64,000 nt of DNA from a virus: positions 1-64,000 of IMG/VR virus record IMGVR_UViG_3300041964_000068. The stretch is one strand, 5' to 3'. A program made the translations under genes and the position numbers. Below the pieces are notes generated by a model that searched no databases, was not told the origin of the DNA, and saw only the letters and a program-made list of their open reading frames with translations. This document shows positions 1,120 through 62,200 of this stretch, piece by piece. Each line of letters opens with the position of its first letter. The first letter of the stretch is position 1.

Positions 1120-1885
1120 TCATCCTGCTCGCAGCTTTTGAAGTAGCCCCAGTTAATTTTTACGTCCGGCCTGCCGTCTGATTTGATGTTGAGCTTGCAG
1201 ACTTGAGCGCCCCAAAGCTCACACATCCGCTGAGAGTTCCGCAGTTCTTCGCCATCCGTCTGATAAACACCCTGTAGCCCTCCGGCGTTGCTACCGTTTT
1301 TGGGACAGGAGAAGGCGTACTTGAAGGTTCGCAGCGTGTCATAGCCGAGAGAGAGGACTTGCAGCGTGAAATCGCGATCGAGCTTCAGATTCACCTCGTC
1401 CCGAAACTTGAGAGACTTGCAGCGCTGAGCATGAATCGCAACACAGCAGTCACAATACCGTTCATCGTATAGGGCTTTTTCTGGCTCCAGGCGAACTGCT
1501 GATACTCTAGTCCCGCCTGGGCGATGGTGTTGGAGGAGACGAAGAATTGCTCAGCCCCGACAGCGCCACGTCAAGATCAATCCGCTGCATCTTCCTGACA
1601 CCTGCTTGAAGAATCCGGTCAGGTCGTCATCCAGCATCCAGAACCACGTCAAGCGTTCTATCGCCGCGACATCAAGTATGAACTGCCGCGCATAGGCCAG
1701 CCCCCGATCGTTGTCCGGCAAGATAATTAGATGGCTTTGAGGTAGAACTTTCAGTAATCAAAATACTCTTGAGGCTCAACCACAAACCAAAATTGTTTCT
1801 TCTCCCAGTCAGGCAGGGCTTTGAGCGCCTTGAGCGTTTGCGATGACTGCGATCGGTTCTTGCTGGCGACGTAGATCGGGAGCAT
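1120..1885 (-). pseudogene. Base-J-type (JGT/GREB1-like) DNA glycosyltransferase, frameshifted
   Basis: Translating the minus strand in shifting frames gives one continuous protein-like sequence. It starts at ATG 1885 (MLPIYVASKNRSQSSQTLK) and runs 44 codons to a TGA at 1751-1753. It continues in another frame with HLIILPDNDRGLAYARQFIL and then WFWMLDDDLTGFF, where DDD is a typical metal/sugar-nucleotide site of a GT-A fold. Further shifts lead through EYQQFAWSQ, LYDERYCDCC, LKLDRDFTLQVL, FSCPKNGSN and GRPDVKINW. This motif order is what I recall of the glycosyltransferases linked to TET/JBP oxygenases. The start lies inside the 3' end of the JBP-like gene, so the two form an operon. At least four shifts are needed, most at short homopolymers. 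Either the gene is dead or the sequence has indel errors. Family assignment is from memory of motifs, not a search. Confidence 0.6.
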
Positions 1886-2840
1886 TAGCGAATTCCTTGA
1901 GGATGGAGGCTTTTACCTGATTGGCGCGGTCGATCTCGTGTGCGTCGTAAAGTGTCCCTTTCTGTCGGGAGAGCTTGGCGCGTTCCTGCTCGTAGCGAGC
2001 ATTCCCGCAACGCAGTAGGTTTTCCCGCAGGTAGAAGACGCTCGTGATCCGCTCGTGCTTGCCCCGGCCTGAGATAGCCGTATTGCCGTGAGCTTCATGG
2101 ACATCGAACAGAATCACGTCGCGAGATTCCAGCTTGACCGCAACGCGGTACTTGGGGATAACAAGATAGCCGCCGCTGATCTCGCCACCTTGCAGATAGG
2201 CCATGCAGCCGAAGCCCTCTTTCAGATCGCCCGCATCGGTATGGACGGCGGTCTGAAAGTTCTTGTTGATAGTCAAGGTGCTAAAGGCAGTATCGTGAAT
2301 CACCCACTCTGGCGAACAGGCTTCAGCGATGGCTCGCTGTACTCGGTAGCGCTCCGGGCAGTTCGCCGCGAACACTCGATCGACACAGCGGATGAACGGC
2401 TGGAGCTTGCGCCATTGTGTCGGGAAGTTGATCAGGAAGGCCGTCTCTCGCGCATAGGGATAGCGAGTGTAGCGGTCGTAGTAGCCGACGATGCCGCTAT
2501 GCACCTCAAAGTAGCCGTTGGTTTCAGGATCTATAGTCTGAGTTGTTTTGCTCAGCGTCCCGTCCCGCAGGCGACGGCGGACTTTGAACTCGTTGCCCAG
2601 TCCGGTCGAGCGGTTCTTGCTGGTCTGAATCCGGGTTTTGTGCAGCGTCATGAAAGCGTTCATGGCGATCGGTGGCGGAACCGCGCCCTTGCAAAGCTGC
2701 AAGAGTAGTTCGCCATTGGGTTTGTAAACCCGCGCCGATTCACTTACGAGTAAGTCGTAGTGAGAATCATCGAGCTTTGCCCCTAGTAGAGCTTGCACGG
2801 CTTCGTCAGGCAGGGCATGAGTGAGGCGGATTTCTTTCAT
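1809..2840 (-). CDS. TET/JBP-family 2-oxoglutarate/Fe(II) DNA base dioxygenase
   Basis: 343 residues from ATG 2840; an upstream GTG at 2882 would add 14 residues. The core shows the iron and 2OG site of the family: HTDAGD (H200, D202), DVHEAHGNT (distal H251), and HERITSVFYLREN (R264 for 2OG), with TINKNFQTAVHTD and GGYLVIPKY around them. The order and spacing match trypanosome JBP and phage TET/JBP proteins, which hydroxylate the methyl of thymine or 5-methylcytosine in DNA. It overlaps a LexA-like gene upstream and a glycosyltransferase gene downstream, so the hydroxylated base is probably a sugar acceptor. The substrate (thymine or 5mC) cannot be told from the sequence. Confidence 0.85.
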   Translation of the reverse strand: MKEIRLTHALPDEAVQALLGAKLDDSHYDLLVSESARVYKPNGELLLQLCKGAVPPPIAMNAFMTLHKTRIQTSKNRSTGLGNEFKVRRRLRDGTLSKTTQTIDPETNGYFEVHSGIVGYYDRYTRYPYARETAFLINFPTQWRKLQPFIRCVDRVFAANCPERYRVQRAIAEACSPEWVIHDTAFSTLTINKNFQTAVHTDAGDLKEGFGCMAYLQGGEISGGYLVIPKYRVAVKLESRDVILFDVHEAHGNTAISGRGKHERITSVFYLRENLLRCGNARYEQERAKLSRQKGTLYDAHEIDRANQVKASILKEFANAPDLRRQQEPIAVIANAQGAQSPA

Positions 2841-3080
2841 CGCTGGAACCACATCGCAAATTGCGGGTTTCGTTGGGGACACACCAGATCCAGCCCGCCG
2901 TTTTCAAGCGGCTGATATGGTAGACAAGATTGCTTTGCGAGGTGTTAAGCAAGTCCAGTAATTCAGCCAATGTCGGCGGGTAGCCGTACTGAGACAGGCT
3001 GGCGTGGACAACAGCGATGATCTGCTGCTGAACGCGCGGCAGGAGTTCTATTGTCCGGGAGGAGTCCGGGTGTCGGGCAT
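2806..3080 (-). pseudogene. LexA-like winged-helix DNA-binding protein, one frameshift
   Basis: From ATG 3080 the frame reads MPDTRTPP and then hits a stop. One extra C in the CCC run near 3053 would join it to LLPRVQQQIIAVV, SQYGYPPTLAELL, SQSNLVYHISRLKTAGWI. This is the LexA N-terminal winged-helix pattern, including GYPPTLAE and the HISRLKTAGWI wing. There is no peptidase domain; the frame ends at 2806 inside the start of the dioxygenase gene. A CTTA-N4-TAAG palindrome lies 16 bases before the ATG, so this is a candidate autoregulator of the modification operon. It is about 91 residues if the frameshift is an error. Confidence 0.55.
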
Positions 3081-3113: not shown

Positions 3114-3935
3114 CTACTCGCGGGGAAGAATAGCCCGCTGATAGGCTTCGCGCATGACCGCGAGAATACAGTCGGTCGGGTTGCCTGTGTGATGAAGGGG
3201 ATTCAGCGCGTCAATCATGTCCATCATCTCAGGATGAGTTTCGTTCGAGAGAAAGAGGTTGAGCATTCGAGTCGAGCTTTCCGGTGGGGCGTCGAAGTCA
3301 TCCTCGCCTTCGTCCTCAGCATCACTGTTCTCGTCGCTGCCATGATTGAAGATCATCTCGCCGCTTTCAGATAGTTCCTCATAGCGCAACAGAGAAGAGA
3401 GATAGTCAGTGTCGAAGCCGATCGGCAAGGCTTCCCCGGCCTCTGCAAGCTCCTCTAGCTGGGTGGAGAACTCCGGCGAAAACAGCTTGGCGATGTCAGC
3501 GGCGGAGTAGTCCCCGCCCTGCATCGTTAAAATGTTGTGCGATAAGCCGAAATTTTCCGCCTGCCGCTCTGACAGGGCATCGACGCCGAACTTAACCGGA
3601 ACCACCCATTCACCCGTCTCGGTGACGCGCCCGATACCTCGTGGGGGTTCTTGGTCTAGCTGGCGCATTCGTACCAGTTTCAGGATCAGCGACTTGGTTC
3701 GACCGTTGCCGTAGACGAATCCGCCCTCTCCACCGTTGAGGGTAGAATCCCACTTCGCGCAGTCAGCGTAGCCGTACTCTTCAATGCTCTCGTCAAGCAG
3801 TTGCAAATCGTGAAGCTTGAGATTGTTCTCCCAAAGCTGCACATCTAAATCAAAAGCAGATAACGGGACATAGCGAATGTGAAGCACGTCGCCCGTTATC
3901 TGCTCTAGTGAAAGCGAATTTTCAAGTAGGGTCAC
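3114..3935 (-). CDS. ParB/sulfiredoxin-fold nuclease-like protein
   Basis: 273 residues. The N-terminal half has the ParB-N pattern: YVPLSAFDLD, then LKLHDLQLLDESIEEYGY, then GGFVYGNGRTKSLI, where GNGR corresponds to the ParB nucleotide/phosphate-binding motif. The middle is Asp/Glu-rich (DAEDEGEDDFD) and the C-terminus has no obvious HTH. Phage ParB-like proteins of this sort often sit beside DNA methylases and other modification genes; here it is directly upstream of the LexA-like/dioxygenase/glycosyltransferase operon. A role in DNA modification or its regulation is more likely than plasmid partition, but this is inference. Confidence 0.7.
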   Translation of the reverse strand: MTLLENSLSLEQITGDVLHIRYVPLSAFDLDVQLWENNLKLHDLQLLDESIEEYGYADCAKWDSTLNGGEGGFVYGNGRTKSLILKLVRMRQLDQEPPRGIGRVTETGEWVVPVKFGVDALSERQAENFGLSHNILTMQGGDYSAADIAKLFSPEFSTQLEELAEAGEALPIGFDTDYLSSLLRYEELSESGEMIFNHGSDENSDAEDEGEDDFDAPPESSTRMLNLFLSNETHPEMMDMIDALNPLHHTGNPTDCILAVMREAYQRAILPRE

Positions 3936-6219: not shown

Positions 6220-6861
6220 TGAAAAGATCACCGCTCCGATTTTTCTTCCAGGCCGAATGTCAAAGACAGAATCGTTCCGCATTCGCCCTGTTTGCGGGAT
6301 GCCGTTTTGCAGGTAGCGATGCGTCCGACGAACTGATAAACATGGTGGATGTGGCAGTCTAGCTGTGAGAAACGTCGATAGATACCAACCGCTTGAAAGT
6401 AGTCACGGGAAGTAGGAATAGCAATCGGCGTGTTCGTAGTCGCGATCGATTAGCCCTCAAAGCAGCGTTCGATAAAACTTCATCCCCAGACTGAACGGTG
6501 GATTCCCAGTAAATAAATCGAAGCGCGTTTGCTCCGCTTCAAACTGCCGAGCGAGCGAGAAGAAGTCTTCGTTGTACCAATCACAATTCGGCGCTTTTTG
6601 TGCGCCCAAGGTGCAGCGTCCGGGCTTGAGTTCGATCGCCTTGACTCGTGGATTACTCCTGGTCGGCAGAAACTTTGCAATTTGGCCTGTCCCTGCCGCT
6701 GGCTCGATGATGCGCTTGTCGGTCGGCAAAACCAGCGAGGCGATTTTGAGCGCGACAGGATCGGGCGTCTCCCAATCGTCACTCGTGAAATCGTCAAGAT
6801 CGTATCCCGAATGAGCATCGGGAACATGGTCGGGGAATAGCGAGCTTTGGGTAGCCTTCAT
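6220..6861 (-). pseudogene. N6-adenine-type DNA methyltransferase, frameshifted
   Basis: From ATG 6861 the first ~135 codons encode a clear class I DNA methyltransferase: EPAAGTGQIAKFLP (motif I, SAM binding) and FTGNPPFSLGMKF (motif IV, catalytic NPPF). The frame stops at 6457. The natural continuation is found in other frames: ERCFEG, LIDRDYEHADCYSYFP, RDYFQAVGIYRRFSQLD, HHVYQFVGRIA and SVFDIRPGRKIGAVIFSYD. At least four single-base shifts are needed (TTTT, GGG and CCC runs for three of them). The start is coupled to the DUF2811 gene by an ATGA overlap. The enzyme is probably either inactive or intact behind sequence errors. Confidence 0.65.
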
Positions 6862-7076
6862 GCCGCTTTCTTGTCTCCGTAAACAGCATTCAGGTAAATT
6901 CCACCGCACTCTTGATAGGTCTGCGGATCGTTGGTGCTGTTCATCAGGTACAGGGCAATTGCGCCTGCAAACATCTGGTTTACATCCTTGTCGGGGTGAG
7001 CGTCCAAATGTTCAGCTATTCGCGATTGCAAGGCTTCAGGTAGGTCTACTTGCAGCGAGATAAATTGTTCGTTCAT
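6858..7076 (-). CDS. DUF2811 family protein
   Basis: 72 residues. ISLQVDLPEALQSRI, HLDAHPDKDVNQMFAGAIALYLM and GGIYLNAVY match the pattern of DUF2811, a small family that I associate with cyanobacteria and their phages. The predicted fold resembles a ribbon-helix-helix-like unit, but its function is unknown. The TGA overlaps the methylase ATG. Confidence 0.65.
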   Translation of the reverse strand: MNEQFISLQVDLPEALQSRIAEHLDAHPDKDVNQMFAGAIALYLMNSTNDPQTYQECGGIYLNAVYGDKKAA

Positions 7077-25790: not shown

Positions 25791-27263
25791 CTAAATCAAT
25801 ACAAGTGCCTGTGAACGAGTCAAATTCAGGCTTCCGTTCGCCGCCGTCACGACAGGAGAACTCACCCGCCAATCTGATATCTTGCCGTTGAGGTCGATCG
25901 CCGCCACGCGAATAAAATAAGTACCCTGGCTGACACCTTCAAAGCGCGTTTCATAGCTCCCCTTAATCACCGTGCGCGTATCCTGCCAGGTGATTCCGTC
26001 GCGAGAGTATTCCACGTACACGGCTTTAATCAAAGCGGCAGTCGCGGCGTTCAGCGTCCAGCCCGCCACGAGGGGTGTAATCGATCGTCGTATTCCTATC
26101 ACCGCAATAGCGCCAGCCGTCACAGCAGCAGGCGGCGTGACAACGGTGGGGATTGAGAATCGCGTCGGCGCGGCCTCAACTTCGACCTGGCTTTCGATCG
26201 CGGCGTACTTGCTGGGGTTGTACTCGATCGCGTTAATTTCAACCCGCGTCGGATCTCCGGCCTTGGGTGCAACGCTCACCACGCGAAAGGTCTGAGGCTG
26301 CACATTAGGGTCACGGACAATCCAGTTGGACTCCGCGAGCGGAACTTCCGAGAAAGCTGCTGTAACAGCAATTACGCTGGCGACACCTGTCCCTGAAATC
26401 GTGCGGGTTTGCAGCGCACCGGACGGCAGCATAACCGTGATCGTGAAACCCGCGCCAACCACGACCGGAGAATCGAGGGTGACAGTCGTAGCGGTGGCGG
26501 CGGCAATCAAACCGCCGTAGCGAATATTGGCAAATTCATCGTCTGCAACTTGAATCACCTCGCCGGGGCGGCAGTAAGCGGCGAAGCTACGAGCGGTAAA
26601 CGAAACACTGCGAGTTTCATAACGGCTCGAATACAGCGCCCAGCGCCCTACCCGAATTGCCAGCGCCCGCGACGTACAGCCGAAGGCGGCGATTTCGATT
26701 TCGCGAATGCCGTACTTGTTAATCCCAACAACATCCTCAACCGTCTCAACCGCTCGCTGGTACTCGTCTTCGGGGTCGTTCCAGGTCACACGCGCAACCG
26801 TGTGACGAGCGCGAATCGCCGTGCTGGAGTAGGTAAACCTGCCTGAAATATCCGCCTGGGTGAACTGCCGCACCGGAGTAGCGGGGCGATCTTGCCAGAA
26901 TTTAACAATCCCGCCGCTCCAGTACGGCTTCATGTGGCAAGCGCTGCAAAATGCGTTAATCACCTCCCACGCTTTTTCTCCCGACTGCAACTGCGTGTTA
27001 CAGCTATACCGCCGTTCGCTATAGCCAAGTCCAGTGGGGAGCATCTGATTGTTGTAGACCGAGCATTCGTACAAGTTCCATTTATCAATCAGCGAATCCT
27101 CGATCGAGCGCCCCAGGCCGTAGCGATTATTCGTGAGCAGATCAAATAAATGCCACACCGGATCGGCGCAGGCTTTCGAGGGAACGTAAAACGTGCCGTT
27201 CCAGGCTCCCGAAAAGTTCAGCCCGCGATCGGCGGCAACGGTGGCGTTAGAGGGAATCCGCAC
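25791..27263 (-). CDS. Tail tip attachment protein J-like, C-terminal part
   Basis: 490 residues of the lambda gpJ/host-specificity family. It includes RIPSNATVAADRGLNFSGAW, then WHLFDLLTNNRYGLGRSIED, the Cys/Trp-rich EKAWEVINAFCSACHMKPYW, the barrel core and a C-terminal fibronectin-III-like part (WTLNAATAALIKAVYVEYSR). The frame begins in the middle of the gene; the N-terminal part is in the overlapping frame 27218-28470, with a single shift near 27460. J sits at the tail tip and binds the host receptor. Confidence 0.75.
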   Translation of the reverse strand: MRIPSNATVAADRGLNFSGAWNGTFYVPSKACADPVWHLFDLLTNNRYGLGRSIEDSLIDKWNLYECSVYNNQMLPTGLGYSERRYSCNTQLQSGEKAWEVINAFCSACHMKPYWSGGIVKFWQDRPATPVRQFTQADISGRFTYSSTAIRARHTVARVTWNDPEDEYQRAVETVEDVVGINKYGIREIEIAAFGCTSRALAIRVGRWALYSSRYETRSVSFTARSFAAYCRPGEVIQVADDEFANIRYGGLIAAATATTVTLDSPVVVGAGFTITVMLPSGALQTRTISGTGVASVIAVTAAFSEVPLAESNWIVRDPNVQPQTFRVVSVAPKAGDPTRVEINAIEYNPSKYAAIESQVEVEAAPTRFSIPTVVTPPAAVTAGAIAVIGIRRSITPLVAGWTLNAATAALIKAVYVEYSRDGITWQDTRTVIKGSYETRFEGVSQGTYFIRVAAIDLNGKISDWRVSSPVVTAANGSLNLTRSQALVLI

Positions 27264-28470
27264 TCGCCGCCCCGCAATCTTGTACTGTCGCTGCGGGATA
27301 GAGGAGAACTGCTCAGGCTGAAAATCAAGCAGGACGTAGGCGGTGTAGGGATAGTTGAGCTTGTTTTGGATGACCTCGGTGTAGCTTGACCACTGGAGTT
27401 TTTGGACTTTTTTCTGTGAGGTTGAGTCGCTAGAAATCTTGGTGATCCTGACCTGAACGTATCAACCGTGCCGCCTTGGTTGTTCACCTTGAAGGCGTAC
27501 TCAAGCTCGGTGGGGCTGGAGAATTTGCCTTGCAGGTTTTTCTGATAGCGCGTCTGCCAAGCCGCTCCGCCCTGCTTCACCTCAATGCGGTACTCGATAT
27601 CCGTGCCCGAAACGTCGCCATCGTCTTCATATTTGACAAGCGTTACCGCAATCCGCACCCGGATCAGGTCAAGCTCGCTATTAACGATCGATCGGGTTGT
27701 TGCGCCCAGTGAGTTTTTCACCTCGACGTTGACGCTTGTTTCTGAGGCGATTTCTTCGCCATCGCCTGCAATAATGCTTTGCCCCGGCGAACCCCGGCGC
27801 AATTTGTACTTGAAGCCCTTAAAGTTGAGCGAACCGTCTGCGTTTTGTACCGGGGTCTTATCGAGCAAGATACCTTTACGAGCGCCAACTAGCCCCTCAA
27901 TCTGCCCCTCAGAAATTGCCTCAAGCACATAGGCTCTACTGGTCGATCGGCCTGTGTCGTCGGCCTCTTGCGGCGATCCAGCGCTCTTGCCGCCGCCCAT
28001 GTTGCTAACGCGAATACCGTGTTCGCCTACTAGGTAGGTGTGAGTGTATGCAACCGTGATGTTGTAGACCGTCTCGGTGCTGCGATAGCGCCACCCTAAG
28101 AGCTTGCGGGCAAGATTCGCGCCATCATAAAGCAGATCTCCCGGCGACAGCTTTCCGACTTCCTCGAAAGCTGTCTCACCGCCTAAGTAGCCTGCGACAA
28201 ACCAGTGATTCGGCGTGGCGGGAATCATCCCGCCCTCATAGTCGTACTCCCAGACACCGTGCCCTTCGTGGATATGGGTTTCGGTAACGTAGGAGCTAAC
28301 CACGTTGCCGCGCTTGTCAAAGCAGTAAACGTAATCTCCGACATCTAGCTCGCAAATTGGCCTCAAGCCGAGCGGCGTCTGCACACAGACATCCGCCGGA
28401 AAGCAGCCGCCGAAGCTGCCGGAAAGAAGGGGAGGGCGTTCTCGGTCTTCGCAGGGTTAGCTGTCTTCAT
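27218..28470 (-). CDS. Tail tip protein J-like, N-terminal part with embedded Hint domain
   Basis: ATG 28470 (MKTANPAKTENA) needs one shift near 28425 to reach GSFGG and then a Hint domain (28001-28405). After it the J N-terminus follows: STSRAYVLEAISEGQIEGLV, GSLNFKGFKYKLRRGSPGQS, SVNVEVKNSLGATTRS, DLIRVRIAVTLVKYEDDGD, EYAFKVNNQGGTVDTF. Another shift near 27460 leads into the C-terminal part. So J here is ~890 residues, ~135 of them the Hint insertion. Longest open piece is 27218-28384. Confidence 0.7.
28001..28405 (-). other. Hint (intein-like/BIL) domain inside J
   Basis: About 135 residues. Block A: Cys at the start (CFPADVCVQTPLGLRPICEL, then DVGDYVYCFD). Block B: ATPNHWFV with T-x-x-H. 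Block F: VYNITVAYTHTYLVGEHG. It ends IRVSN followed by Met-Gly-Gly-Gly. The penultimate His of true inteins is replaced by Ser and there is no Cys/Ser/Thr at +1. Full splicing is therefore unlikely; autocleavage, as in BIL or pretoxin-Hint domains, is more likely. No homing endonuclease is embedded. Confidence 0.7.
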
Positions 28471-38893: not shown

Positions 38894-39073
38894 ATGGGAA
38901 AACGCAAAACTCCTATTGCAGCCCTGATTGAAACTGCCGATAATTTCGATCGCTACGGCACGAGCTACCCAGATCAAGAAGCGATCCGCAACAGGCGAAG
39001 ACACGAAAAGCAGAGCAGAGATGCAGGGCTAGACTCGGAACTCGATCGAGATCACCTGCCCATCGCGAATTAA
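38894..39073 (+). CDS. Small hypothetical protein, 59 aa
   Basis: ATG 38894 (MGKRKTPIAALIETADNFDR). Basic and helical; its last 45 bases overlap the 3' end of the convergent recombinase gene. It may be a small accessory protein of the recombinase, but this is only a guess from position. Confidence 0.4.
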   Translation: MGKRKTPIAALIETADNFDRYGTSYPDQEAIRNRRRHEKQSRDAGLDSELDRDHLPIAN

Positions 39074-40426
39074 GATTTTTGAGATATACAGCCGAAAGGC
39101 CATTTGCAAATCGGTGGGGCTAAGCTGCTTCCAGTACTCTTCTTTCCGCCCCACCCGAATCAGCATTTCCCGCAATTCAGTATTTTCGGGTATCGCTTGA
39201 GTCTTCTTGATTTGAGTGCGTAGCTGGGTAATCTTGCGGGCAAATAGCCCGTCCTCATCGCCCATCTGCGCGATCATGTTTTGGAGGCTGGCGATGTGCT
39301 GCTCCAAGAGTAGCTTTTCGGGGTTCACGTACTCCGCACTGTTGAGGGCGAGAGCGTAATCCGCTAGCTCGATCGACTTTTCACAAAGCTGGCGGATGAC
39401 CTCTGCTTCAACTTCGGGCAGTTTAATCCCCTTGGCGTCACGCTGATAGCAAGGAAAGCTCTCGATCAAGCTTTGCTGTGTGCGGCAGTAGGCGTAAAAA
39501 TAGTGCTTCCCTTTGTATGTACTTCTTGCGAGGGTCATGCGATAGCCGCACCTCTCGCAAATCAGCAGGCTCCGCAGCGGATAGACCACGTTCTGATCGG
39601 CCTTACTGGTTTGGCGGTTCGTGCCCAAAGAAAGCGCGATTTGCTTCTGCTGCGCGTCACTCAGCAGCTTTTCGTCCGAATGAGTGTGGTAGATAATCTC
39701 TCGCCACTGCGCGGCCTTGTTCTTGTAGCTCAGCCGCCCGTAGGGAGTGTGCCCACACAGGACGGGTGAAAGTACCCACCGTGTCAACCCCGCAGGCGTC
39801 CAGCGCTTACCAAGCTCCCTGTCAATAACGCGACAAGCCTCGGTCGCATTTCGGGTTTCTTGCAAAATCTCGATCGTCCGAATCGCATCATCGAGCGTGT
39901 CAGGGTTGCGGCGATACTGATTTTCTATCCGCACATATCCCCAAGGAATCGAGGCGTTCGCGTGTTTCTGATAGCGGGCATATTCGACGCTTGCTCGAAT
40001 GCGCTGAGATAGCTCCCGCGATTCTCCCTCGCTGCGAACGCTGGCGTTGGCGAACTCGCTCCAATCATTCGGGTTGCGAAAGTCGAACGGTCGGCCTTTC
40101 CTGAGTTCGTATAGCTCTATCCCGGTGCGCTCGAATAGCTTCGCCAGCCAGCCGTTCATTTGCAGATCTCGCGAGATCCGGTCAACCCGCAGGATATACA
40201 GGCGATCGATTTGGTTGGCCTCGATCAGTGCTAAGAGCTTCTGAAATTCGGGACGATCGTCCTCGCGTCCCGACTGGATATCGATAAATAGCAGATCATC
40301 ATCCGGCTCAAACCCGTCAGCCACTACCGCCCGCTCCAGTAGAAAAAGCTGCCGAGTTAGGGCATCCTTATCCTTAGCCTGCTCTTTCTTGCTGACTCGC
40401 CCATATCTGGCTACGCGCTTTCTCAT
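39029..40426 (-). CDS. Large serine recombinase, XisF-like
   Basis: 465 residues. Serine-recombinase catalytic domain: RVARYGRVSKKEQ (catalytic Ser12), LFIDIQSGREDDRPEFQKLL, DRLYILRVDRISRDLQMNG. It is followed by the recombinase domain (SIPWGYVRIENQYRRNPDTL), a zinc ribbon (LLICERCGYRM ... YCRTQQ) and a coiled coil. The whole resembles cyanobacterial XisF, which excises the fdxN element during heterocyst development, and phage serine integrases. It probably integrates and excises this element. No att core could be seen. Confidence 0.85.
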   Translation of the reverse strand: MRKRVARYGRVSKKEQAKDKDALTRQLFLLERAVVADGFEPDDDLLFIDIQSGREDDRPEFQKLLALIEANQIDRLYILRVDRISRDLQMNGWLAKLFERTGIELYELRKGRPFDFRNPNDWSEFANASVRSEGESRELSQRIRASVEYARYQKHANASIPWGYVRIENQYRRNPDTLDDAIRTIEILQETRNATEACRVIDRELGKRWTPAGLTRWVLSPVLCGHTPYGRLSYKNKAAQWREIIYHTHSDEKLLSDAQQKQIALSLGTNRQTSKADQNVVYPLRSLLICERCGYRMTLARSTYKGKHYFYAYCRTQQSLIESFPCYQRDAKGIKLPEVEAEVIRQLCEKSIELADYALALNSAEYVNPEKLLLEQHIASLQNMIAQMGDEDGLFARKITQLRTQIKKTQAIPENTELREMLIRVGRKEEYWKQLSPTDLQMAFRLYISKILIRDGQVISIEFRV

Positions 40427-44005: not shown

Positions 44006-44176
44006 ATGAAGCATCCGATCGAAATAGAACTGGCTTGGCAAGTCCGACCATTCCCGAAACTTTTCCCCAATCTTGGCTATGAAGGTGAGCCGTTCTTGGG
44101 ATACCGAGAAATCTACTATGACGGCAAGCACCGTATGTTTGGTTTTTGGTGGCTCTCTATTCACTGGTACATATAA
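44006..44176 (+). CDS. Small hypothetical protein, 56 aa
   Basis: MKHPIEIELAWQVRPFPKLF... rich in aromatics, ends FGFWWLSIHWYI. The RNA ligase gene starts 3 bases after its stop. Reading frame is clean and the composition looks like real protein. Function unknown. Confidence 0.5.
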   Translation: MKHPIEIELAWQVRPFPKLFPNLGYEGEPFLGYREIYYDGKHRMFGFWWLSIHWYI

Positions 44177-44178
44177 AC

Positions 44179-44811
44179 ATGGCTGAAAATTCAATGAGCG
44201 AATACCACAAGATTCAAAGTGTTTTCAAGCGCGACCCTGCAACGAGAAACAAGCGGTTTGTGATGTGGGATTATTCCCTGCCCGAATTTGAGTATCTTGC
44301 TCACAACCCTTGGGTGGGAACTGAAAAGGTTGACGGGACAAACGTTCGCATTTCCAAGAGCGGTATCTACGGCAAGACTGATAACGCACAAATTCATCAA
44401 GGGCTGATTCCTCACCTAATCGATGTTAAGGATCGGGTCATCCGGTCAGAGTTGCCGGATGACACTATTTTGTACGGTGAAGGGTACGGAGCAAAGATTC
44501 AGTCAGGCGGTCAATACCTACCTGACAGACAGGCGTTTGTTTTGTTTGACGCCAACATTTCTGGGAATTTTCAGCCGCGATCGAGCGTTCTAGATATTTC
44601 GATAAAGCTAGATCTTCCCGTCTGCCCAATCCTTGAAACAATGACGCTAGTAGAGTGGGTGGCGGCGATCGAGGCGGGTAAGTTTCGCGAGTCGATTTTG
44701 CATCCTGGCGCGAAAAACGAAGGGGTTGTTTTGCGTCCTGCAACAGAATTAAGAACTCGTGACGGGCATCGCGTTATCACCAAGCTCAAGTTCAAAGATT
44801 TTGGCTTGTAA
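44179..44811 (+). CDS. RNA ligase (Rnl2/T4 RnlB-like family)
   Basis: 210 residues from ATG 44179; ATG 44194 is also possible. Nucleotidyltransferase motifs: I, EKVDGTNVRI with Lys50 as the AMP acceptor; III/IIIa, DTILYGEGYGAKIQ and AFVLFDANI; IV, NEGVVLRP; V, HRVITKLKFKDF. The protein is compact and lacks a large C-terminal domain. Phage RNA ligases repair tRNAs cut by host suicide nucleases. No kinase/phosphatase partner is visible nearby. The stop overlaps the next start (TAATG). Confidence 0.8.
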   Translation: MAENSMSEYHKIQSVFKRDPATRNKRFVMWDYSLPEFEYLAHNPWVGTEKVDGTNVRISKSGIYGKTDNAQIHQGLIPHLIDVKDRVIRSELPDDTILYGEGYGAKIQSGGQYLPDRQAFVLFDANISGNFQPRSSVLDISIKLDLPVCPILETMTLVEWVAAIEAGKFRESILHPGAKNEGVVLRPATELRTRDGHRVITKLKFKDFGL

Positions 44812-45054: not shown

Positions 45055-45936
45055 ATGGGTAAGGATTCAAAGATCGCTTGGACAACGCACACTTTTAACG
45101 CCTGGTACGGTTGCGACGAAGTATCCCCGGCCTGCGATAACTGCTACGCTCGGCTGTTGATGGATGAACGCTATCACAGAGTCAAGTGGGGTAAAGGTCA
45201 ACCAAGAATTAGAACCAGTGAAAAATACTGGAAACAGCCCTACCAGTGGGACACTGAGGCCAAAGCTCAAGGCGTCCGGCATCGTGTGTTCTCGCTGTCG
45301 CTGGGAGACTGGCTGGACGACGAGGTTCCAATCGAGTGGCTAGCCAGTCTCCTTGCTGTTGTCTTCATGACACCTCATCTTGACTGGCTACTGCTTACCA
45401 AGCGAATCGAAGACTTTGAAAGCCGGATGTACCAAGTTGTTCGCACGATAGAAGAAGGCACTCCGGCCTGGGTTCTGGCTGAGGACTGGAGGAACGGCCT
45501 TCCGCCGCAAAATGTGTGGCTAGGGGTGACAGTTGAGAATCAAGAGATGGCTGACAAGCGTATTCCTTTACTCGCGAATGCTCCTGCCAAAATCCGCTTT
45601 TTAAGCTGTGAACCGCTGCTAGAGGGAATCGACCTGAGTAAATTCTTTAACATTTACTCCAGCGGTGAAGGCACGAACAGCTACGCCTCAGATCAGCCCT
45701 TCGATCAGGTCATTTTTGGCGGAGAGAGCGGCAGCAATGCTCGACCATTCGATCTAAGTGCAACGCGAAAGATGATCCAGCAATGCAACTCAGCGGGTAT
45801 CGCAGTCTTTGTTAAGCAACTTGGGCGGCGACCTGTCGAGAATGGGGTGACGCTAAAGCTGAGCGATCGAGAGGGCAAGAACATTGAAGAGTTCCCCGCC
45901 GATCTCCAAATTCGTGCGTTTCCTGATCGCGGCTAA
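45055..45936 (+). CDS. Phage Gp37/Gp68 family protein (DUF5131)
   Basis: 293 residues. It begins KIAWTTHTFNAWYGCDEVSP and ACDNCYARLLM, with three Cys spaced C-x(6)-C-x2-C as in this radical-SAM-like phage/plasmid family. RVFSLSLGDWLDDEVPIEWL, DWLLLTKRIEDF, NVWLGVTVENQEMADKRIPL, FLSCEPLLEGIDLS and FGGESGSNARPF are all typical. Its reaction is not established. It lies after the RNA ligase pair on the same strand. Confidence 0.85.
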   Translation: MGKDSKIAWTTHTFNAWYGCDEVSPACDNCYARLLMDERYHRVKWGKGQPRIRTSEKYWKQPYQWDTEAKAQGVRHRVFSLSLGDWLDDEVPIEWLASLLAVVFMTPHLDWLLLTKRIEDFESRMYQVVRTIEEGTPAWVLAEDWRNGLPPQNVWLGVTVENQEMADKRIPLLANAPAKIRFLSCEPLLEGIDLSKFFNIYSSGEGTNSYASDQPFDQVIFGGESGSNARPFDLSATRKMIQQCNSAGIAVFVKQLGRRPVENGVTLKLSDREGKNIEEFPADLQIRAFPDRG

Positions 45937-55157: not shown

Positions 55158-55478
55158 ATGAATGTTGAAGTCACGCCACGCGAAGAACTCATTATTCTCG
55201 CGCTCTACGATAAAGAACTCTACGGCCTGGAAATCTCAAAGGCCATAGAACAAGCTAGCAACGAAAAGCTTCGGATGAGCGTTGGCACACTGTACCCTCT
55301 CCTACACTCCCTTGAAGACAAAGGACTTATCAAGCCCCGATGGGGTGATGAAGGCCGGGGAGAGCGGAAAGGCGCGAGGCGTTGCTACTACAAGCTCACA
55401 GCTAGCGGCGTGGCTACCTTCGAGGCTATTCAATCCTTCCGAGCTAATCTCGTCAATTGGCAGCCAGGCGTTAGTTAG
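55158..55478 (+). CDS. PadR-family transcriptional regulator
   Basis: 106 residues. LIILALYDKELYGLEISKAI, SVGTLYPLLHSLEDKGLIKP and the wing CYYKLTASGVATFEA are diagnostic of PadR winged-helix repressors. It has only a short C-terminal dimerisation part. Convergent with the tape-measure gene; the stop codons overlap. It may be a second regulator of this element. Confidence 0.85.
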   Translation: MNVEVTPREELIILALYDKELYGLEISKAIEQASNEKLRMSVGTLYPLLHSLEDKGLIKPRWGDEGRGERKGARRCYYKLTASGVATFEAIQSFRANLVNWQPGVS

Positions 55479-57547
55479 CTCCTCGACAACGAACCGCCGG
55501 GGCGCTTCTCCTTCTGAATGGTGGCCTGAATCTGCGATTCCATGATTTGTCTGAAGGCCGGGATATCGACACTGGATTCTTCGCCGCTGACGTTGACGGT
55601 GACGGGCACGTTGACATCGCCGCCCCGCTTGCCGCCCGCCGCCATGCCGCTCGTTTGAATGCGAGGAGCGCTCATGCCCACTGTGCCGCCGGACTTGAAG
55701 TTTAGTACATCGTCCATCCCCAATTCGCGGTAGCGCCGTGCCTGAGCAACCGTTAGAACCTCCTCCCCCGGCGTCAAGGCAGCGAGAACCGCATTGTTCC
55801 CTTCTCGCTGCAACGCCTCGCTAATTGCGCCGTAGCCCTTGCGATAGCTGGAGTGATTGAGCGCATCCACTTCGCCGCCTTCAGCAAACCCGCCAATCAG
55901 CGAAGCCCCGATATTCAAAATCGTTCCCGCCAATCCTCCACCCAGGCCGCCACCGCCGCCGCCAACCGCCGCGCCCGCCGCCTGCTGTCCCGCGCCGAAG
56001 ATGCCGCTCAGAACTCCGCCGATCCCGCCGCCGCCCGCCGCTTGTTGCCCCGGCAGGCCACCGCCGCCGCCAAACAGATCCTTCAGCAAGGCGTTGACGG
56101 CAAGCTGAGCGAGTTGCGAGAGGATATTCGAGATTAGATCCTTGAACGCTTCACCCGCCGACTTGGAGCCTGTGAGGATGTCATTAAAGAACTGCCCTAG
56201 CGATTCCTGTCCGATCGTCTCAAGCGTCTCCCCCAAGTCTTTGAATTGACTGTCGATGTTCTCCAGGTTCAGGGCATTCAGGGTTTCGGCTTCGGATCGA
56301 AGTGCTGCAATTTGCTCAGCCGAAAACTGTGTCGATTCTTCGAGCGCGTCAATGCCCGACATCTGCCGCCCGAATCGCTCGTTCTCCTGCTCAAACGCAT
56401 ACTGCTCTCGCACCTGCGCTGCGCCGAAGGTGTCCCGATTGTTTTCGAGATAGGTTGCCGAAGCCTCAACTGTGTCTTGCTGAAGCGTATCCTCAAGCTG
56501 TTGCCGTACTTGCTCTAGTCCGGTTTGAGCGATCCGGATTTCGATATCGCGCTGCTGAGTGAGAGCGTCAAGCTGATCGGATAAGTGCGTGGCTTCTTGT
56601 TGGGCTAAAGTTAGCTGCTCCGGGTTGAGGTTCAATCCCTGCCCGTCGATCGCCTCCATGTTGTCGCGGATTCGCTTAAGCTGCTCCTCCAGCGGGCGCA
56701 TTTGCTCAGCGTAACGATCTCCGATGCCCATGATGTCGCCACGAGTCTGAATCACCTGCACCCCAATTTCATTGCCTTCGAGTCCGGCTTGCGCGGCTCG
56801 CTCTTGCAGCATCAGGGCTGCACTTTGGCGTAAGCTCTCCGCTCGTTGAAGTGCCTGCTGCTGTGCATAGGCTTCGGTAGCGATGTCATTCTGACGGTCA
56901 AACAAGGTTTGCGCGTCGTTGAGTACACCCTGGAAGCGGTTTAGCTCGGTCTGGGTGTTGTTGATGAAGCTGTCTAGACCGGGAATAGCCGACAGCATCT
57001 CGGTCGCTTGCGCCTCGATCGTCGCCGGATCAACGCCAAGCTGAGCGGCCTGAGTGCGGAAGTCCTGTACCTGCGTCAGGATTTCGTTCTTCGCTGCTTC
57101 TGCTGCGGTAATGGCTTCTTGGGCATCGCGAACACTACGAATCAGGTCGCGGTTTTGGTCTTGGAACTGCCGCTCGCGCTGAACGCCTGCCCGGATGAAC
57201 TCGGCTGACTGAGTATCGCCCAGCATCTCCAGCGATATATCTTCCTGAGCGCGTTCGTAGTTGAGCGCTTCGTCCTGCATCTCTTCCGCCGATCGCCGCA
57301 GTGATGTCATGCGATCCTGCACCATGCGGCGAAGGTTGGCGCTACTGGCACTGTTTTGAGCCGCTAGCCGCTGATCGTAGGACTCAAGCTGATCTGTAAG
57401 GGCTTGAGAAGCGACACCTAAACCTTGGTTGACCTGTGTCTGTCCGAAGCGCAACCCCTGATTAACGCCAGGAGCGCCGGGGTACTGAGTCTGAGAGGCC
57501 AAGGCCGTAGTCGCGGCAGCATTTCCGGTGACGCCGCTATCCCGCAA
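55475..57547 (-). CDS. Tape measure protein, C-terminal part
   Basis: 690 residues of coiled coil (EEMQDEALNYERAQEDISLE, QQEATHLSDQLDALTQQRDI). A Gly/Ala-rich hydrophobic tail (GGVLSGIFGAGQQ, GTILNIGASLIGGFAEGGEV) and TPGEEVLTVAQARRY follow, typical of the C-terminus of phage tape measures. It is the last of three frames of one gene. A shift near 57620-57660 links RDSNGTTVRNAAPKFQSGDH to the preceding lysozyme-like part. Confidence 0.8.
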   Translation of the reverse strand: MRDSGVTGNAAATTALASQTQYPGAPGVNQGLRFGQTQVNQGLGVASQALTDQLESYDQRLAAQNSASSANLRRMVQDRMTSLRRSAEEMQDEALNYERAQEDISLEMLGDTQSAEFIRAGVQRERQFQDQNRDLIRSVRDAQEAITAAEAAKNEILTQVQDFRTQAAQLGVDPATIEAQATEMLSAIPGLDSFINNTQTELNRFQGVLNDAQTLFDRQNDIATEAYAQQQALQRAESLRQSAALMLQERAAQAGLEGNEIGVQVIQTRGDIMGIGDRYAEQMRPLEEQLKRIRDNMEAIDGQGLNLNPEQLTLAQQEATHLSDQLDALTQQRDIEIRIAQTGLEQVRQQLEDTLQQDTVEASATYLENNRDTFGAAQVREQYAFEQENERFGRQMSGIDALEESTQFSAEQIAALRSEAETLNALNLENIDSQFKDLGETLETIGQESLGQFFNDILTGSKSAGEAFKDLISNILSQLAQLAVNALLKDLFGGGGGLPGQQAAGGGGIGGVLSGIFGAGQQAAGAAVGGGGGGLGGGLAGTILNIGASLIGGFAEGGEVDALNHSSYRKGYGAISEALQREGNNAVLAALTPGEEVLTVAQARRYRELGMDDVLNFKSGGTVGMSAPRIQTSGMAAGGKRGGDVNVPVTVNVSGEESSVDIPAFRQIMESQIQATIQKEKRPGGSLSRS

Positions 57548-59289
57548 GAACTGTTGCGCCCGTTCGTAATGATCGCCCGATTGAAATTTGGGTGCAGCAT
57601 TGCGTACCGTAGTACCGTTGGAGTCTCTTCTGTTCCAGTAACGCTCTGAGCGTTGCCCGCTAGCACCGCTGAGTAGGCGTGTCGGATGTCGTGTTGTCCG
57701 GGTTGGAATCCTCGATCTTGCAGGTAGCGCTCAATCGCGGGCATTTGCTCTGCGATTGACTGATTCCGGCGAATGCCGTAGCGCTGCTGATTGTCCGGCG
57801 AAAACTGAATCAAGCCTTGGTAATCGTTGCCGTCACCGCCCATTACGTTCGGGTTGAATGATCCGCCCGACTCCCAACTCATCAAAGCGGCAAACTGATC
57901 GACAGGTAAGCCAAGGCGCTGAGCAGCCCCCGCCATCGCTGCGGCTCCGGCAGGGTCAGACCGCACTCGTTCGGCGCGGCTGAGTGTCCCGCCGCGAGGC
58001 ACGTAGCGCTGTCCTGTTGGTTGAGGCGCGGCTTGAGCGGGTCTAGCAGCTTGCGCGGGAGCAGGCGCAGGCGCAGGTGCAGGAGCTTGCTGAATCGCCT
58101 GATTGAAATTAGGCGCTCCTCTTGCCAGTTCTCGTGCGGTTCGATCGCGCATTCCCAGCGCGGCACGGTTTGTTCTACGGCTATCCGGTGCAAAGAAATC
58201 CAGCGAAACGTGCGCCCCGGTTGTCGATCCGGTTCGCCCCTGCGTACCCAACACCGTGCCGACACCGACTTGTTGACCCACCTGCACGGCAACCCGATCG
58301 AGGTGAGCGTAGAGCATATCAACAAACTCCCCCGTCACCTCATCACGAGCGCGTACAATCACCTGATTGCCGTAGCCTCTGCGTCCGGTGTTGCGGCCTC
58401 CCCGCCCCATATTGTTTTCCCAGTTCTGATCCGTCACGGTGCGAACCACCGTACCCGCCGCCACCGCGCCGAACTCTGCTCCCCTCCTGCCGTCTGCTAC
58501 CACATAATCGAGGCCAGGTTCACCGCTTGCGTCCACTGCTGACGTGACGTGAATCCCCTCAAAGCGGGTCGTTCGCCCTGCCGCCGCCGCTGCGCCCGCT
58601 AGAGGAGCGCCCGTTGCTGGCTGTAAACCGCTGAGAAGCTGTTGCGCCTGCATTGCGGTGTCCGCAAACTGATTGTTCGCCGCGAGGCGATTGCGCTGTG
58701 CTTCAAGCAGGTTCTTCAGCGGCTCAAATAGCTGCTCGACGAGTTCGGTCATGCCGGAAACAAACTCGCCAAAGTATTTATTACCGATTCCGGTAAGGTT
58801 CGTGCTGAGCCTTGTTCGCGCCTGCATCATGACGCGATCGAGGTCGGATTCCTTGATCGACATCGCCACGTCTTGAGCGTTGCGTTCAATGCCCCGGTAG
58901 AAGTCGGCTACCTGAGTCGAGACTTCTTTAAGCTGCTGCTGAGCGTCTACTTGAGCTTGGGCGATTTCACCTTGCAGCGAGGTTACATCAATTTGGCGCT
59001 GAGAAAGCTGCTCCTGAATGTCAGCCGCAATCAAAAGCTGATCCTTCAGATCTCCGTCCGGCCTTGCGGGGTCGTTGGCGTAGGCGCGAATTTGTGCGGC
59101 TCCCGTCCCCGGCGCAATCTCAGCCGTCCTGAGTGCGTTTTGCAGTTCAGCGTTCAGCAGTTGATTTTGCAGCCGCGAAATCTCTTGCTGACTAGCTTGA
59201 ATCTGTGCGTTCAAGCGTTCCTGATTCGCTCGGTTCTGACGGTCGCCTGCCTGTACTGTGTTCAGTCCTCCAGCCGCTTGCTGTTGCAA
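57418..59289 (-). CDS. Tape measure protein, middle part with M23 and lysozyme-like domains
   Basis: 623 residues. An M23 (LytM) peptidase-like domain: GNQVIVRARDEVTGEFVDML, YAHLDRVAVQVGQQVGVGTV, GSTTGAHVSLDFF with H-x-H-like metal residues (YAHLD ... AHVSLD). A transglycosylase-like domain follows (AALMSWESGGSFNPNVMGGD, YQGLIQFSPDNQQRYGI, with Glu in WESGG). These would open the cell wall during DNA injection. It continues the upstream frame via a shift at an AAA run near 59355. Confidence 0.8.
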   Translation of the reverse strand: MQQQAAGGLNTVQAGDRQNRANQERLNAQIQASQQEISRLQNQLLNAELQNALRTAEIAPGTGAAQIRAYANDPARPDGDLKDQLLIAADIQEQLSQRQIDVTSLQGEIAQAQVDAQQQLKEVSTQVADFYRGIERNAQDVAMSIKESDLDRVMMQARTRLSTNLTGIGNKYFGEFVSGMTELVEQLFEPLKNLLEAQRNRLAANNQFADTAMQAQQLLSGLQPATGAPLAGAAAAAGRTTRFEGIHVTSAVDASGEPGLDYVVADGRRGAEFGAVAAGTVVRTVTDQNWENNMGRGGRNTGRRGYGNQVIVRARDEVTGEFVDMLYAHLDRVAVQVGQQVGVGTVLGTQGRTGSTTGAHVSLDFFAPDSRRTNRAALGMRDRTARELARGAPNFNQAIQQAPAPAPAPAPAQAARPAQAAPQPTGQRYVPRGGTLSRAERVRSDPAGAAAMAGAAQRLGLPVDQFAALMSWESGGSFNPNVMGGDGNDYQGLIQFSPDNQQRYGIRRNQSIAEQMPAIERYLQDRGFQPGQHDIRHAYSAVLAGNAQSVTGTEETPTVLRYAMLHPNFNRAIITNGRNSSCGIAASPEMLPRLRPWPLRLSTPALLALIRGCASDRHRSTKV

Positions 59290-62200
59290 GATTTCGGTTT
59301 GGTTGGCGGCGGCTTCTTGCTGTAGGCGAGTGTTCGTGTCAGCGGTAACCGCTTTATTTGTTCGTACTCTTGAGTGAGCCGCTGAACGCTTGTAACCGAC
59401 TGCTGAATCAGCTTGTTTAGGTTCGCCTGTCCTTCCTCAGACGCACCGATCAGATTGTTGACCTGTTCAAGCTGCCGAATTAACGCCTCTTTGTTCTCTG
59501 CGTTCTCAGGCGTATCGAATGCCCCTGAACCCAGATCGGCCTCAAGCTGGTCACGAATTTGTTTGAAGCTTTCCAGGTTGGCGGAAACAAGCGCCTGCAC
59601 TTCCGCGATCGGACGGCTCGCCGTTTCTCGCGCCTGCACCAGATCGTTGCGCTGAGCTTCAAGCTGTCGGCGCATATCGGTATCAGCGGGCGATAGCGCT
59701 TGTCGCTGAAGCGAATTCTGGCGTAGTTGAGCATCAATGCGATTAAGGTCTTGGATTTGAGTACCGCCGCGCCCGCCCGCGCCCAGCATCCCGTAAAGAC
59801 GGCTGAGGGATTCGTTTCCGCCTGTAATCGCGTTGCCCGACTGAATGATCCGATCTTCGGCTTGTTTCTGCGCGTAGGTTCTCAGAGGAGTTTGCAGCCT
59901 TCGCTCTCCCTCTCCGAGTACCCCTATCCGGCGCAGCCCCGCATCCGCCAATCCACCGAGCGGATCTGACTGAATTCCGCGCTCAATCATACGCGACAAC
60001 CCCGCCCCGGCCTCGTCACCCAGCAGCGCCTTGAAGATCCCGCCCGCTGCTGTTTCCTCCATCATCGAAGGAGCTTTGATCGAAGCTAGCGCGTCTTTCG
60101 CGTCAGTGAGTGACTTGACAAAGCGGTTCGTTTGCTCGGTGCTTTCGCCAACGCTTTCTTTGTAGCGATCGAGGCGTCCATTAATATCAGTCGCCGCCTG
60201 TCCAATTGCGCCGGAAGAATCAGAAATCCCGGTCTTGAATATATGGAACAGGTTGAAGATGGCGGTGATGACAGCGAATTCCAGCGCGACCCGCTTCAGC
60301 ATCGTCAGCAGTCGGCCTAGAATTGCCGGAATCTTTGCAAACGCCGCTCCTACCAGTTCGGCAACTGCCGGAATCCCCATCAACATCCCGATTAGCTGAG
60401 CGAAGCCCTTGACCATGTTGCGAACAATCGCAAAGGTGAGCAGCCCCAATGCCTGGTTGAGGATGTCGGCGTTCTCTCTCACGACCGACATTGCTTCCGC
60501 CATCGCATTAAAGCCCAGGTTGCGAACAGGGAGCGCTAAATCCCCGATCGATTCCTGCAACAGCAAAATTTCGTTGTTAAGGCGATTGGTTGCAGACTGA
60601 GCCGTATTCGCTGACCCCGCTAATCCTACCGAGGTTTCCGCCGAAAGCTGCTGTGCGAAGCGAGGAATGAACTCCTCTGCTGTCACCTCGCCGCTTTCGA
60701 CCCGCTTCGAGAATTCTTGAGGAGACATCCCGTAGGATCTTGCCGCAACCCCGATCGACGAAGGCAGCGCTTCAGCGAGTTGTCCGCGCAATTCTTCGAG
60801 GCTTAGCTGTGACTTGTCGATCATCTGCTGAAGCGCAACATAAGCATTTTGCTGTCGCTCAGGAGAGACGCCATAAACAGCAGAAGCTTGGTTGACGGCT
60901 CCGAAAAGCTGTCGAATCGATTCTCCTTCGAGGCTAGTTCCTTGCGCTGACGCACCTAGACCCGCGAAACCCTGCAAGTTGGTTTCGATATTGGTTCCCA
61001 GGTCAGTAGATTGATTTTTGACAAGCGCGATATTTTGAGCGGCTTCGGCGCTGGAGCTACTGGTGAATTTGATCGCCTGTTCCATGCTCTCAAACCGCAT
61101 CGCCACTTCCATCGAAGCGGTGATGAACTGATCGAGCAACATCAAAATCGGCTTCAGGACAAGCTCGAAGGAGACAAATCCAACCGCCAAGTTTGTAATC
61201 AGGCGCGTGTTCTTGAGGATGCCGTCTGCGATTCCGGCGAACGCCCGCCCAACCTTGGGCGCAAACGTCGCCATCTCTTTCATCGCATCGAGTGAATCCA
61301 GCATGAACGAGATGCTGCCGCCGATGATCGGGATATTTTCTAGCGGATGCTGAGTGCTGACCTCGAATTCTTGGAACTCACCCAGGTCTTTGCCGAGTTC
61401 TTTCAGGCGAGACTGAAAAGCTTTCGCGTAAGTAGAAGCTTGTTCCTTCGCCGCCTGCATAATATTTTGCGGGGACAAGCTTTGAATAAGCTGTTTCGCG
61501 CCTGCAAACATACTTGCTCGCGGCGGCGAAGCCATCTTCTCATTGTTAAACGGCTCCAGCCCCGCCCCTTCAAATTCTTGGGGGGAGACGGGATGATTAC
61601 TGGTTCGCCGCTGTCCCAAGAACCCAAAGAAACGCTCATGAAAGTCAGGCCGACCCAGATACTCCGACAGCTTGTGATTTTGGCCTGCGCCCGACAGCAT
61701 TTGCAAGGCGGGATCGGGTCTACCAAACTTGCGTACCATTGGGGCGAGCAAGTCCCCTTCTCCCAAGAAAGCTCGAAACTTCTCAGGATCGCTCCCCATC
61801 AGGCCGAAGGTTGGAGTCCCAATTCCAACCGCCTTCGACTCTACCCCCATATGTTGAAGAATTTGCTGAGACTCGCGAGCGACATATCCCCCGGCACTGT
61901 AGCCCGCAAAATTAACCGGGAGTCCGGTCTGTCGATGTCTCGCAAGACCAACGGCGGCAGCTTCGATCGCGTCGGGGTTGAACGCCTCTAGAACGTTGTG
62001 CCTGAACGCTTTGCCGATTACTTCTGCGATGAATTTCCGCTTTTTCGCGAATGAAACGCTCGTGTCAGTGGCGACATTCTCGATATGTTCGATCAAGAAG
62101 TCAGTTCCCGCCAGCTTGCCGATGCGCTCCGCGACCGACTTTCCGGTTTTCCCGCGCTGCCCTGCGAATCCGCCGGAAACCACCATGATCGACTTCGCTT

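Follow-up and report, generated by a model that had tools for sequence, protein, structure and literature searches.

The window (the whole stretch of 64,000 nucleotides of viral DNA analysed here) probably carries a DNA-hypermodification cassette of a tailed phage, of the kind that combines a ParB-like protein, a TET dioxygenase and a tailoring enzyme, a judgement that covers the identity of the locus jointly with the mechanism that we propose for it as a whole. On the minus strand, the genes follow one another in the order ParB-like protein (3114-3935), LexA-type winged helix (approximately 3048-2806), TET/JBP dioxygenase (2840-1809) and glycosyltransferase (approximately 1885-1137); this operon order, like the domains, active-site residues and partner statistics given below, was read directly from sequence, profile or model. 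The cassette type is already known, and the window adds a further, probably cyanobacterial, example with an extra winged helix and a sequence-damaged glycosyltransferase gene. A preliminary description of this DNA had taken the dioxygenase and the glycosyltransferase for a DNA-hypermodification pair, which is supported by their matches to the Pfam profiles Tet_JBP and TAGT (TET-Associated Glycosyltransferase), the only Pfam domains found in the two genes apart from a sub-threshold Glycos_transf_2.

The dioxygenase gene is intact (1809-2840, minus strand; 343 amino acids) and starts at the ATG at 2840, the longest open reading frame at this position being 1809-2882. Its protein matched Tet_JBP (PF12851) with 83.1 bits against a curated cut-off of 34.9, and a scan of the DNA of the record gave 85.4 bits (E 1.1e-25) at the same gene. 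Alignment places the HxD iron ligands at H200-T-D202 (codons 2243-2235), the distal iron ligand at H251 (2088-2090; matched to 'elHatT' of TET2) and the 2-oxoglutarate-binding arginine at R264 (2049-2051; matched to RISLVFY of TET2), bearing out the earlier account of a complete dioxygenase with an HTD motif, a distal histidine and a 2-oxoglutarate arginine. None of these four residues varies across 85 relatives of the same type or 6 actinophage TETs, and one gapped row is the sole exception among 65 TETs linked to C5-methyltransferases. Using Foldseek with an AlphaFold2 model of the protein (pLDDT 88), we found that the best PDB matches were CcTet, NgTET1, CMD1 and TET2, all ahead of FTO, with no JBP dioxygenase structure among the structural matches listed; sequence searches for solved TET/JBP relatives returned nothing useful in one alignment (A1) and TET2 alone, weakly, in another (A4). 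Both profile and structure model place the oxygenase inside rather than outside the TET/JBP family, with a modelled double-stranded beta-helix fold closest to that of the TETs, and its predicted activity is the oxidation of the 5-methyl group of a pyrimidine in DNA. Pfam detected no JBP-specific J-DNA-binding or SNF2 domain in the protein. Residue 272 (window 2027-2025), which aligns with H1904 of TET2, is Arg in 85 of 85 ParB-type TETs, Asp in 61 of 65 of the C5-methyltransferase type and Leu in 5 of 6 actinophage TETs, making this position a candidate for base selectivity that is suggestive, and not decisive, as to the base.

The glycosyltransferase (1137-1885, minus strand) is a TAGT of the GT-A type with a DDD motif. 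As described earlier, its ATG (1885) sits 77 nt inside the dioxygenase gene and the motifs LPDNDRGLAYAR (approximately 1721-1686) and FWMLDDD (approximately 1643-1623) are present; the single reading frame that had been claimed did not hold up, as the gene does not form one intact open reading frame and instead changes frame about four times between roughly 1755 and 1440, so that it occupies three frames, with the start codon and the motifs in different ones and the 3' frame open down to 1020. When read through these breaks, the gene scored 76.7 bits against the TAGT profile PF20691, covering positions 2-200 of the 205 in the model, compared with 29 bits for the best single frame (cut-off 27.5). 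The glycosyltransferase had been called base-J-type, with matches expected to TET_JBP and to GREB1/JGT; the former was found, but the GREB1 profile gave no match and PF20691 took its place, and we therefore rejected the JGT/GREB1 assignment in favour of TAGT.

Three intact TAGTs, from the related loci L016 and L005 and from the phage P12024L, gave tblastn matches that alternate between the frames of the damaged stretch, which is 42-49% identical to them, keeps the DDD motif and the invariant columns, and contains no in-frame stop within the matched pieces. No near-identical intact copy of the gene was found, nor was any plasmid DNA match. Sequencing error is the simplest and most likely cause of the breaks, because frameshift-like junctions occur contig-wide (a codon-model scan detected them elsewhere too, including two in the tape-measure gene and one or more in the tail-tip gene) and because the final 4 kb of the record (78.5 kb in all) resemble noise, suggesting a noisy assembly; the living phage therefore probably has an intact glycosyltransferase. 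That the gene is instead a genuine pseudogene, either in a phage that goes no further than hydroxylating its DNA or in a cassette undergoing decay, appears distinctly unlikely: its frame changes, roughly four within about 0.75 kb, are locally denser than those elsewhere, and the neighbouring winged-helix gene is broken as well, but the conserved motif, columns and stop-free homologous frames described above argue against decay, as do the similar breaks in genes that the phage needs (tape measure and tail tip) and the resemblance of the record's end to read noise. The frameshift-like junctions lie at window 55475-63977, 25791-28384 and 1137-1885, with the tape measure in three frames and the tail-tip J-like gene in two. 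At approximately 74.5-78.5 kb of the record (L008 11000-15015), the DNA has an extreme AT and GC skew and a junk-like appearance resembling low-quality read sequence.

Upstream of the dioxygenase, on the same strand and separated from it by the one winged-helix gene, lies a gene for a ParB-like protein of 273 amino acids (3114-3935), with an N-terminal part of the ParB-CTPase type (GNGRT) and, at the C-terminal end, a conserved module (TRMLNLFLSNETHPEMMDMIDALN...GNPTDCILAVMREA). Pfam returned no match above threshold for this protein and PHROG 620 (ParB-like) matched it weakly (E 7.5e-4), while our own HMM of TET-adjacent ParBs, which was seeded with that very protein, matched with E 4e-44; its structure model resembles the ParB/Noc/PadC folds (best E 8e-3). 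In an alignment of TET-partner ParBs (A5), the N-terminal part is of the ParB type and contains G-(H/N)-x-R, and nearly all of the members also share a C-terminal module, (V/I)(R/K)M(V/I)QLF(L/F)... (window approximately 3120-3260), which is possibly a part for docking to or contacting the TET, or for dimerisation. The ParB-like gene reported earlier is thus real and belongs to the family of TET partners. Between it and the dioxygenase, the 'LexA-like gene' of the preliminary description (2806-3048, minus strand) does encode a LexA-type winged-helix DNA-binding domain (Pfam LexA_DNA_bind, 34.5 bits by read-through); the likeness to LexA stops there, as no peptidase domain was found in this gene and its 5' end is frame-broken. 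No such gene was seen in the L016 or L005 cassettes, and the control role suggested for it earlier is a putative one.

To place the cassette among its relatives, we scanned IMG/VR with the window TET by alignment and obtained at least 538 confirmed relatives. The closest TET relative among the matches listed, L016, carries an intact ParB-TET-TAGT cassette, its TET being 47-53% identical to that of the window depending on the alignment (47% by tblastn) and its glycosyltransferase 48%; L005 also carries ParB-TET-TAGT, and in L050 (944-2647) TET and TAGT are fused in one open reading frame of 568 amino acids (84 and 105 bits). The arrangement is not a chance one, because hundreds of phages show this order of genes, and it looks like a module swapped between unrelated phages, since beyond the cassette the L016 contig has next to nothing in common with the window. 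The gene that follows ParB-TET varies (L030, L084 and L071), and may be a TAGT, an FkbM methyltransferase, a class-II glutamine amidotransferase, an unclassified methyltransferase-like protein or a P-loop protein, which suggests several base decorations. We rejected a C5-type assignment for the methyltransferase-like gene that follows the TET in 9 relatives (L071), which had no Pfam or PHROG match and no PC motif by eye. Among prokaryote genomes, TETs were found at only 7 loci, all of them in MAGs and none cyanobacterial.

A ParB-family gene was found directly upstream of the TET in 78 of the 81 window-type loci with room for one, in line with the earlier proposal that the ParB is part of the system, and a C5-methyltransferase in none of 86. 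In the Melnitz-type sister clade, a C5-methyltransferase lies directly upstream in 62/63 loci and a ParB in none. After dereplication at 70% identity, a ParB was upstream in 22/24 window-type loci compared with 0/9 of the Melnitz type (Fisher p 1.4e-6), and a C5-methyltransferase was present in 0/24 compared with 9/9, the two sets having been drawn from different seeds, such that intermediate types may exist. Whole-record scans with PF00145 detected no C5-methyltransferase in any of 42 viral records or in the phages HTVC112P and P12024L, with positive results in 10/14 control genomes. In a TET tree in which the L016 and T4-like rows are gappy and long branches meet where actinophage and C5-methyltransferase-linked TETs join, the latter form one clade (100/99) with the window TET outside it, grouping with L016 (96/79) among the ParB-linked TETs. 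This division by partner gene is apparently new, at least to us, though earlier TET studies may already state such a rule.

Several genes outside the cassette bear on the host. The window recombinase is XisF-like with its best match in Trichormus, the AAA ATPase has its best matches mainly in Nostoc and other cyanobacterial plasmids, and DnaB is closest to that of the Planktothrix phage PaV-LD (37%); these matches make a cyanobacterial host likely, as had been thought, and the XisF-like recombinase suggests a temperate lifestyle. Tail proteins L, J and NlpC/P60 are present and indicate a lambda-like siphophage. The XisF-like serine recombinase is encoded at 39029-40426 (minus strand), an RNA ligase at 44146-44811 (plus strand) and a DUF5131 protein at 45055-45936 (plus strand). 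The opening stretch of the tail-tip J-like open reading frame (FNIII-A_GpJ; 27218-28384, minus strand) resembles a Hint/intein sequence, GLRPICELDVGDYVYC...HTYLVGEHGIRVSN, and is a possible intein; Pfam gave no intein match in this frame at E 1e-3.

We propose that the TET would act on the phage's own DNA, during or after replication, by hydroxylating the 5-methyl group of a pyrimidine, and that the TAGT would then attach a sugar, taken from a nucleotide sugar of the host, to the hydroxymethyl group so formed. The ParB, in its putative role, would probably load the TET on DNA or position it there, and the resulting bulky base may shield virion DNA and so, by analogy with known systems, allow the phage to evade host nucleases. 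In this scheme, substrate, sugar, ParB role and protection are all predictions. TET/JBP-like enzymes are diverse, and their target could conceivably be host DNA or RNA, or some other molecule, with no self-modification; we regard this as very improbable, since the cassette adjoins terminase genes in L003-L005, HTVC112P and actinophages, and actinophage cassettes adjoin ADDT (amino-acid:DNA transferase) and DNA-kinase genes, both fitting modification of the phage's own DNA.

Within the self-modification scheme, the modified base would most likely be thymine, which already carries a 5-methyl group, giving a glycosylated 5-hydroxymethyl-uracil resembling base J; we hold this choice, which draws on association with other cassettes, to be reasonably probable. 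It is favoured because the phage has no recognisable enzyme for making 5-methylcytosine and ParB-partnered TETs consistently lack one, and because homologous ParB-TET cassettes adjoin thymidine-type tailoring genes. The 78.5-kb record contains no C5-methyltransferase (PF00145), though it may be incomplete and one could lie outside it, and no match to the thymidylate-synthase-type dCMP/dUMP hydroxymethylase (PF00303) of T4/SPO1-type pathways; a gene at 6457-6909 (minus strand) with an adenine-methyltransferase-like NPPF motif had no Pfam match at E 0.05. Actinophage ParBs that lie beside Tet-like proteins are homologous to the window partner family (E 5e-14 to 2e-28), and these pairs adjoin one of two sets of genes, ADDT with a P-loop '5hmU DNA kinase' or TAGT with a PIG-L deacetylase; one such cluster, in Tonitrus, is described as a thymine (thymidine) hypermodification system (PMC11955845). 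The analogy with actinophages may nevertheless fail for the choice of base, because ParB-type TETs have Arg, and those of actinophages Leu, at the position of TET2 H1904. P-loop kinases (with a weak Pfam match) also adjoin C5-methyltransferase-linked TETs.

The same cassette could instead act on cytosine, with the TET converting host-made 5-methylcytosine to 5hmC and the TAGT glycosylating it, a reading that we consider rather unlikely but that several observations favour. According to the accounts of Burke et al. 2021 given in PMC11404850 and PMC12730594, the phage TETs with published activity oxidise 5mC to 5hmC, and a C5-methyltransferase, a TET and glycosyltransferases are often found together in phages. 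The TAGT does not fix the base, because one in T6-like phages is held to add a second glucose to glucosyl-hydroxymethylcytosine (PMC13390438), an activity that is itself compatible with cytosine. In predicted fold, the protein comes closest to 5mC TETs, though with no JBP dioxygenase among the structures listed for comparison, and a host could supply 5-methylcytosine; protection would, however, then depend on the host. Against cytosine also stand the lack of a C5-methyltransferase in the record, in the 86 same-type loci and in the 42 whole viral records, and the separate clade formed by TETs that do have one.

Extending the thymine reading, ParB-partnered phage TETs in general may be thymine-specific and delivered by a ParB-type clamp through its C-terminal module, such that glycosylated 5-hydroxymethyl-uracil would be present in this virus and in hundreds of similar ones, a proposal that is possible, though doubtful. 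Were it true, an equivalent of base J would exist outside euglenozoans, sugar-bearing thymine would be common among phages, and ParB would represent a targeting factor, so far unexplored, for an enzyme that modifies DNA. Phage TETs divide, without overlap in the loci sampled, into a ParB-paired group and a C5-methyltransferase-paired clade, and the partner gene would then predict the pyrimidine that is modified; under such a rule, sequence alone could tell for hundreds of uncultured phages whether thymine or cytosine is the modified base. We consider this partner rule the most useful result, as it opens the question of the substrate to direct testing in cultured phages.

Sugar-bearing thymine is known in trypanosomes as base J. 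The kinetoplastid system (JBP1/JBP2 and JGT) resembles that proposed for the window in hydroxylating and then glycosylating a pyrimidine methyl group and in the Tet_JBP profile, but the window dioxygenase has no J-binding or SNF2 domain and the glycosyltransferase is a TAGT rather than JGT/GREB1, so that the base-J analogy is reasonable as chemistry and not as family membership. Cassettes of the Melnitz type, C5MT-TET(-GT), likewise have a central TET with possible glycosyltransferases downstream (Burke et al. 2021, as summarised in PMC12730594); they differ in that the gene directly before the TET is a C5-methyltransferase (62/63) and never a ParB, and in their separate TET clade.

Among cultured phages, the Nonlabens phage P12024L, whose genome is complete, has an adjacent TET (31%, tblastn) and TAGT (42%) in gp26-gp27, but no ParB directly upstream, the next gene being annotated as a methyltransferase. 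The cyanobacterial Synechococcus phage S-CBWM1 has an adjacent TET and TAGT (gp8-gp9) with sugar-nucleotide genes nearby; it is unlike the window in being a 139-kb phage with a longer TET on a distant branch and no adjacent ParB. Given this cultured cyanophage, and as the pair is common, the earlier statement that the arrangement was undescribed in a cyanobacterial element was too strong. In Tonitrus and Wooper, a ParB of the window partner family adjoins a Tet-like protein, whereas the tailoring enzymes are not a TAGT but ADDT (annotated aGPT-PPlase2) together with a 5hmU DNA kinase, and the TETs are on a distant branch from that of the window. The Arthrobacter phage Altadena (gp60-gp64) encodes a ParB, a Tet-like protein and a TAGT in the same gene order as the window, together with a PIG-L (GlcNAc-type) deacetylase. 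Compared with L016, L005 and Altadena, the window has a LexA-type winged helix between ParB and TET, its glycosyltransferase gene is frame-broken, and its host is probably cyanobacterial.
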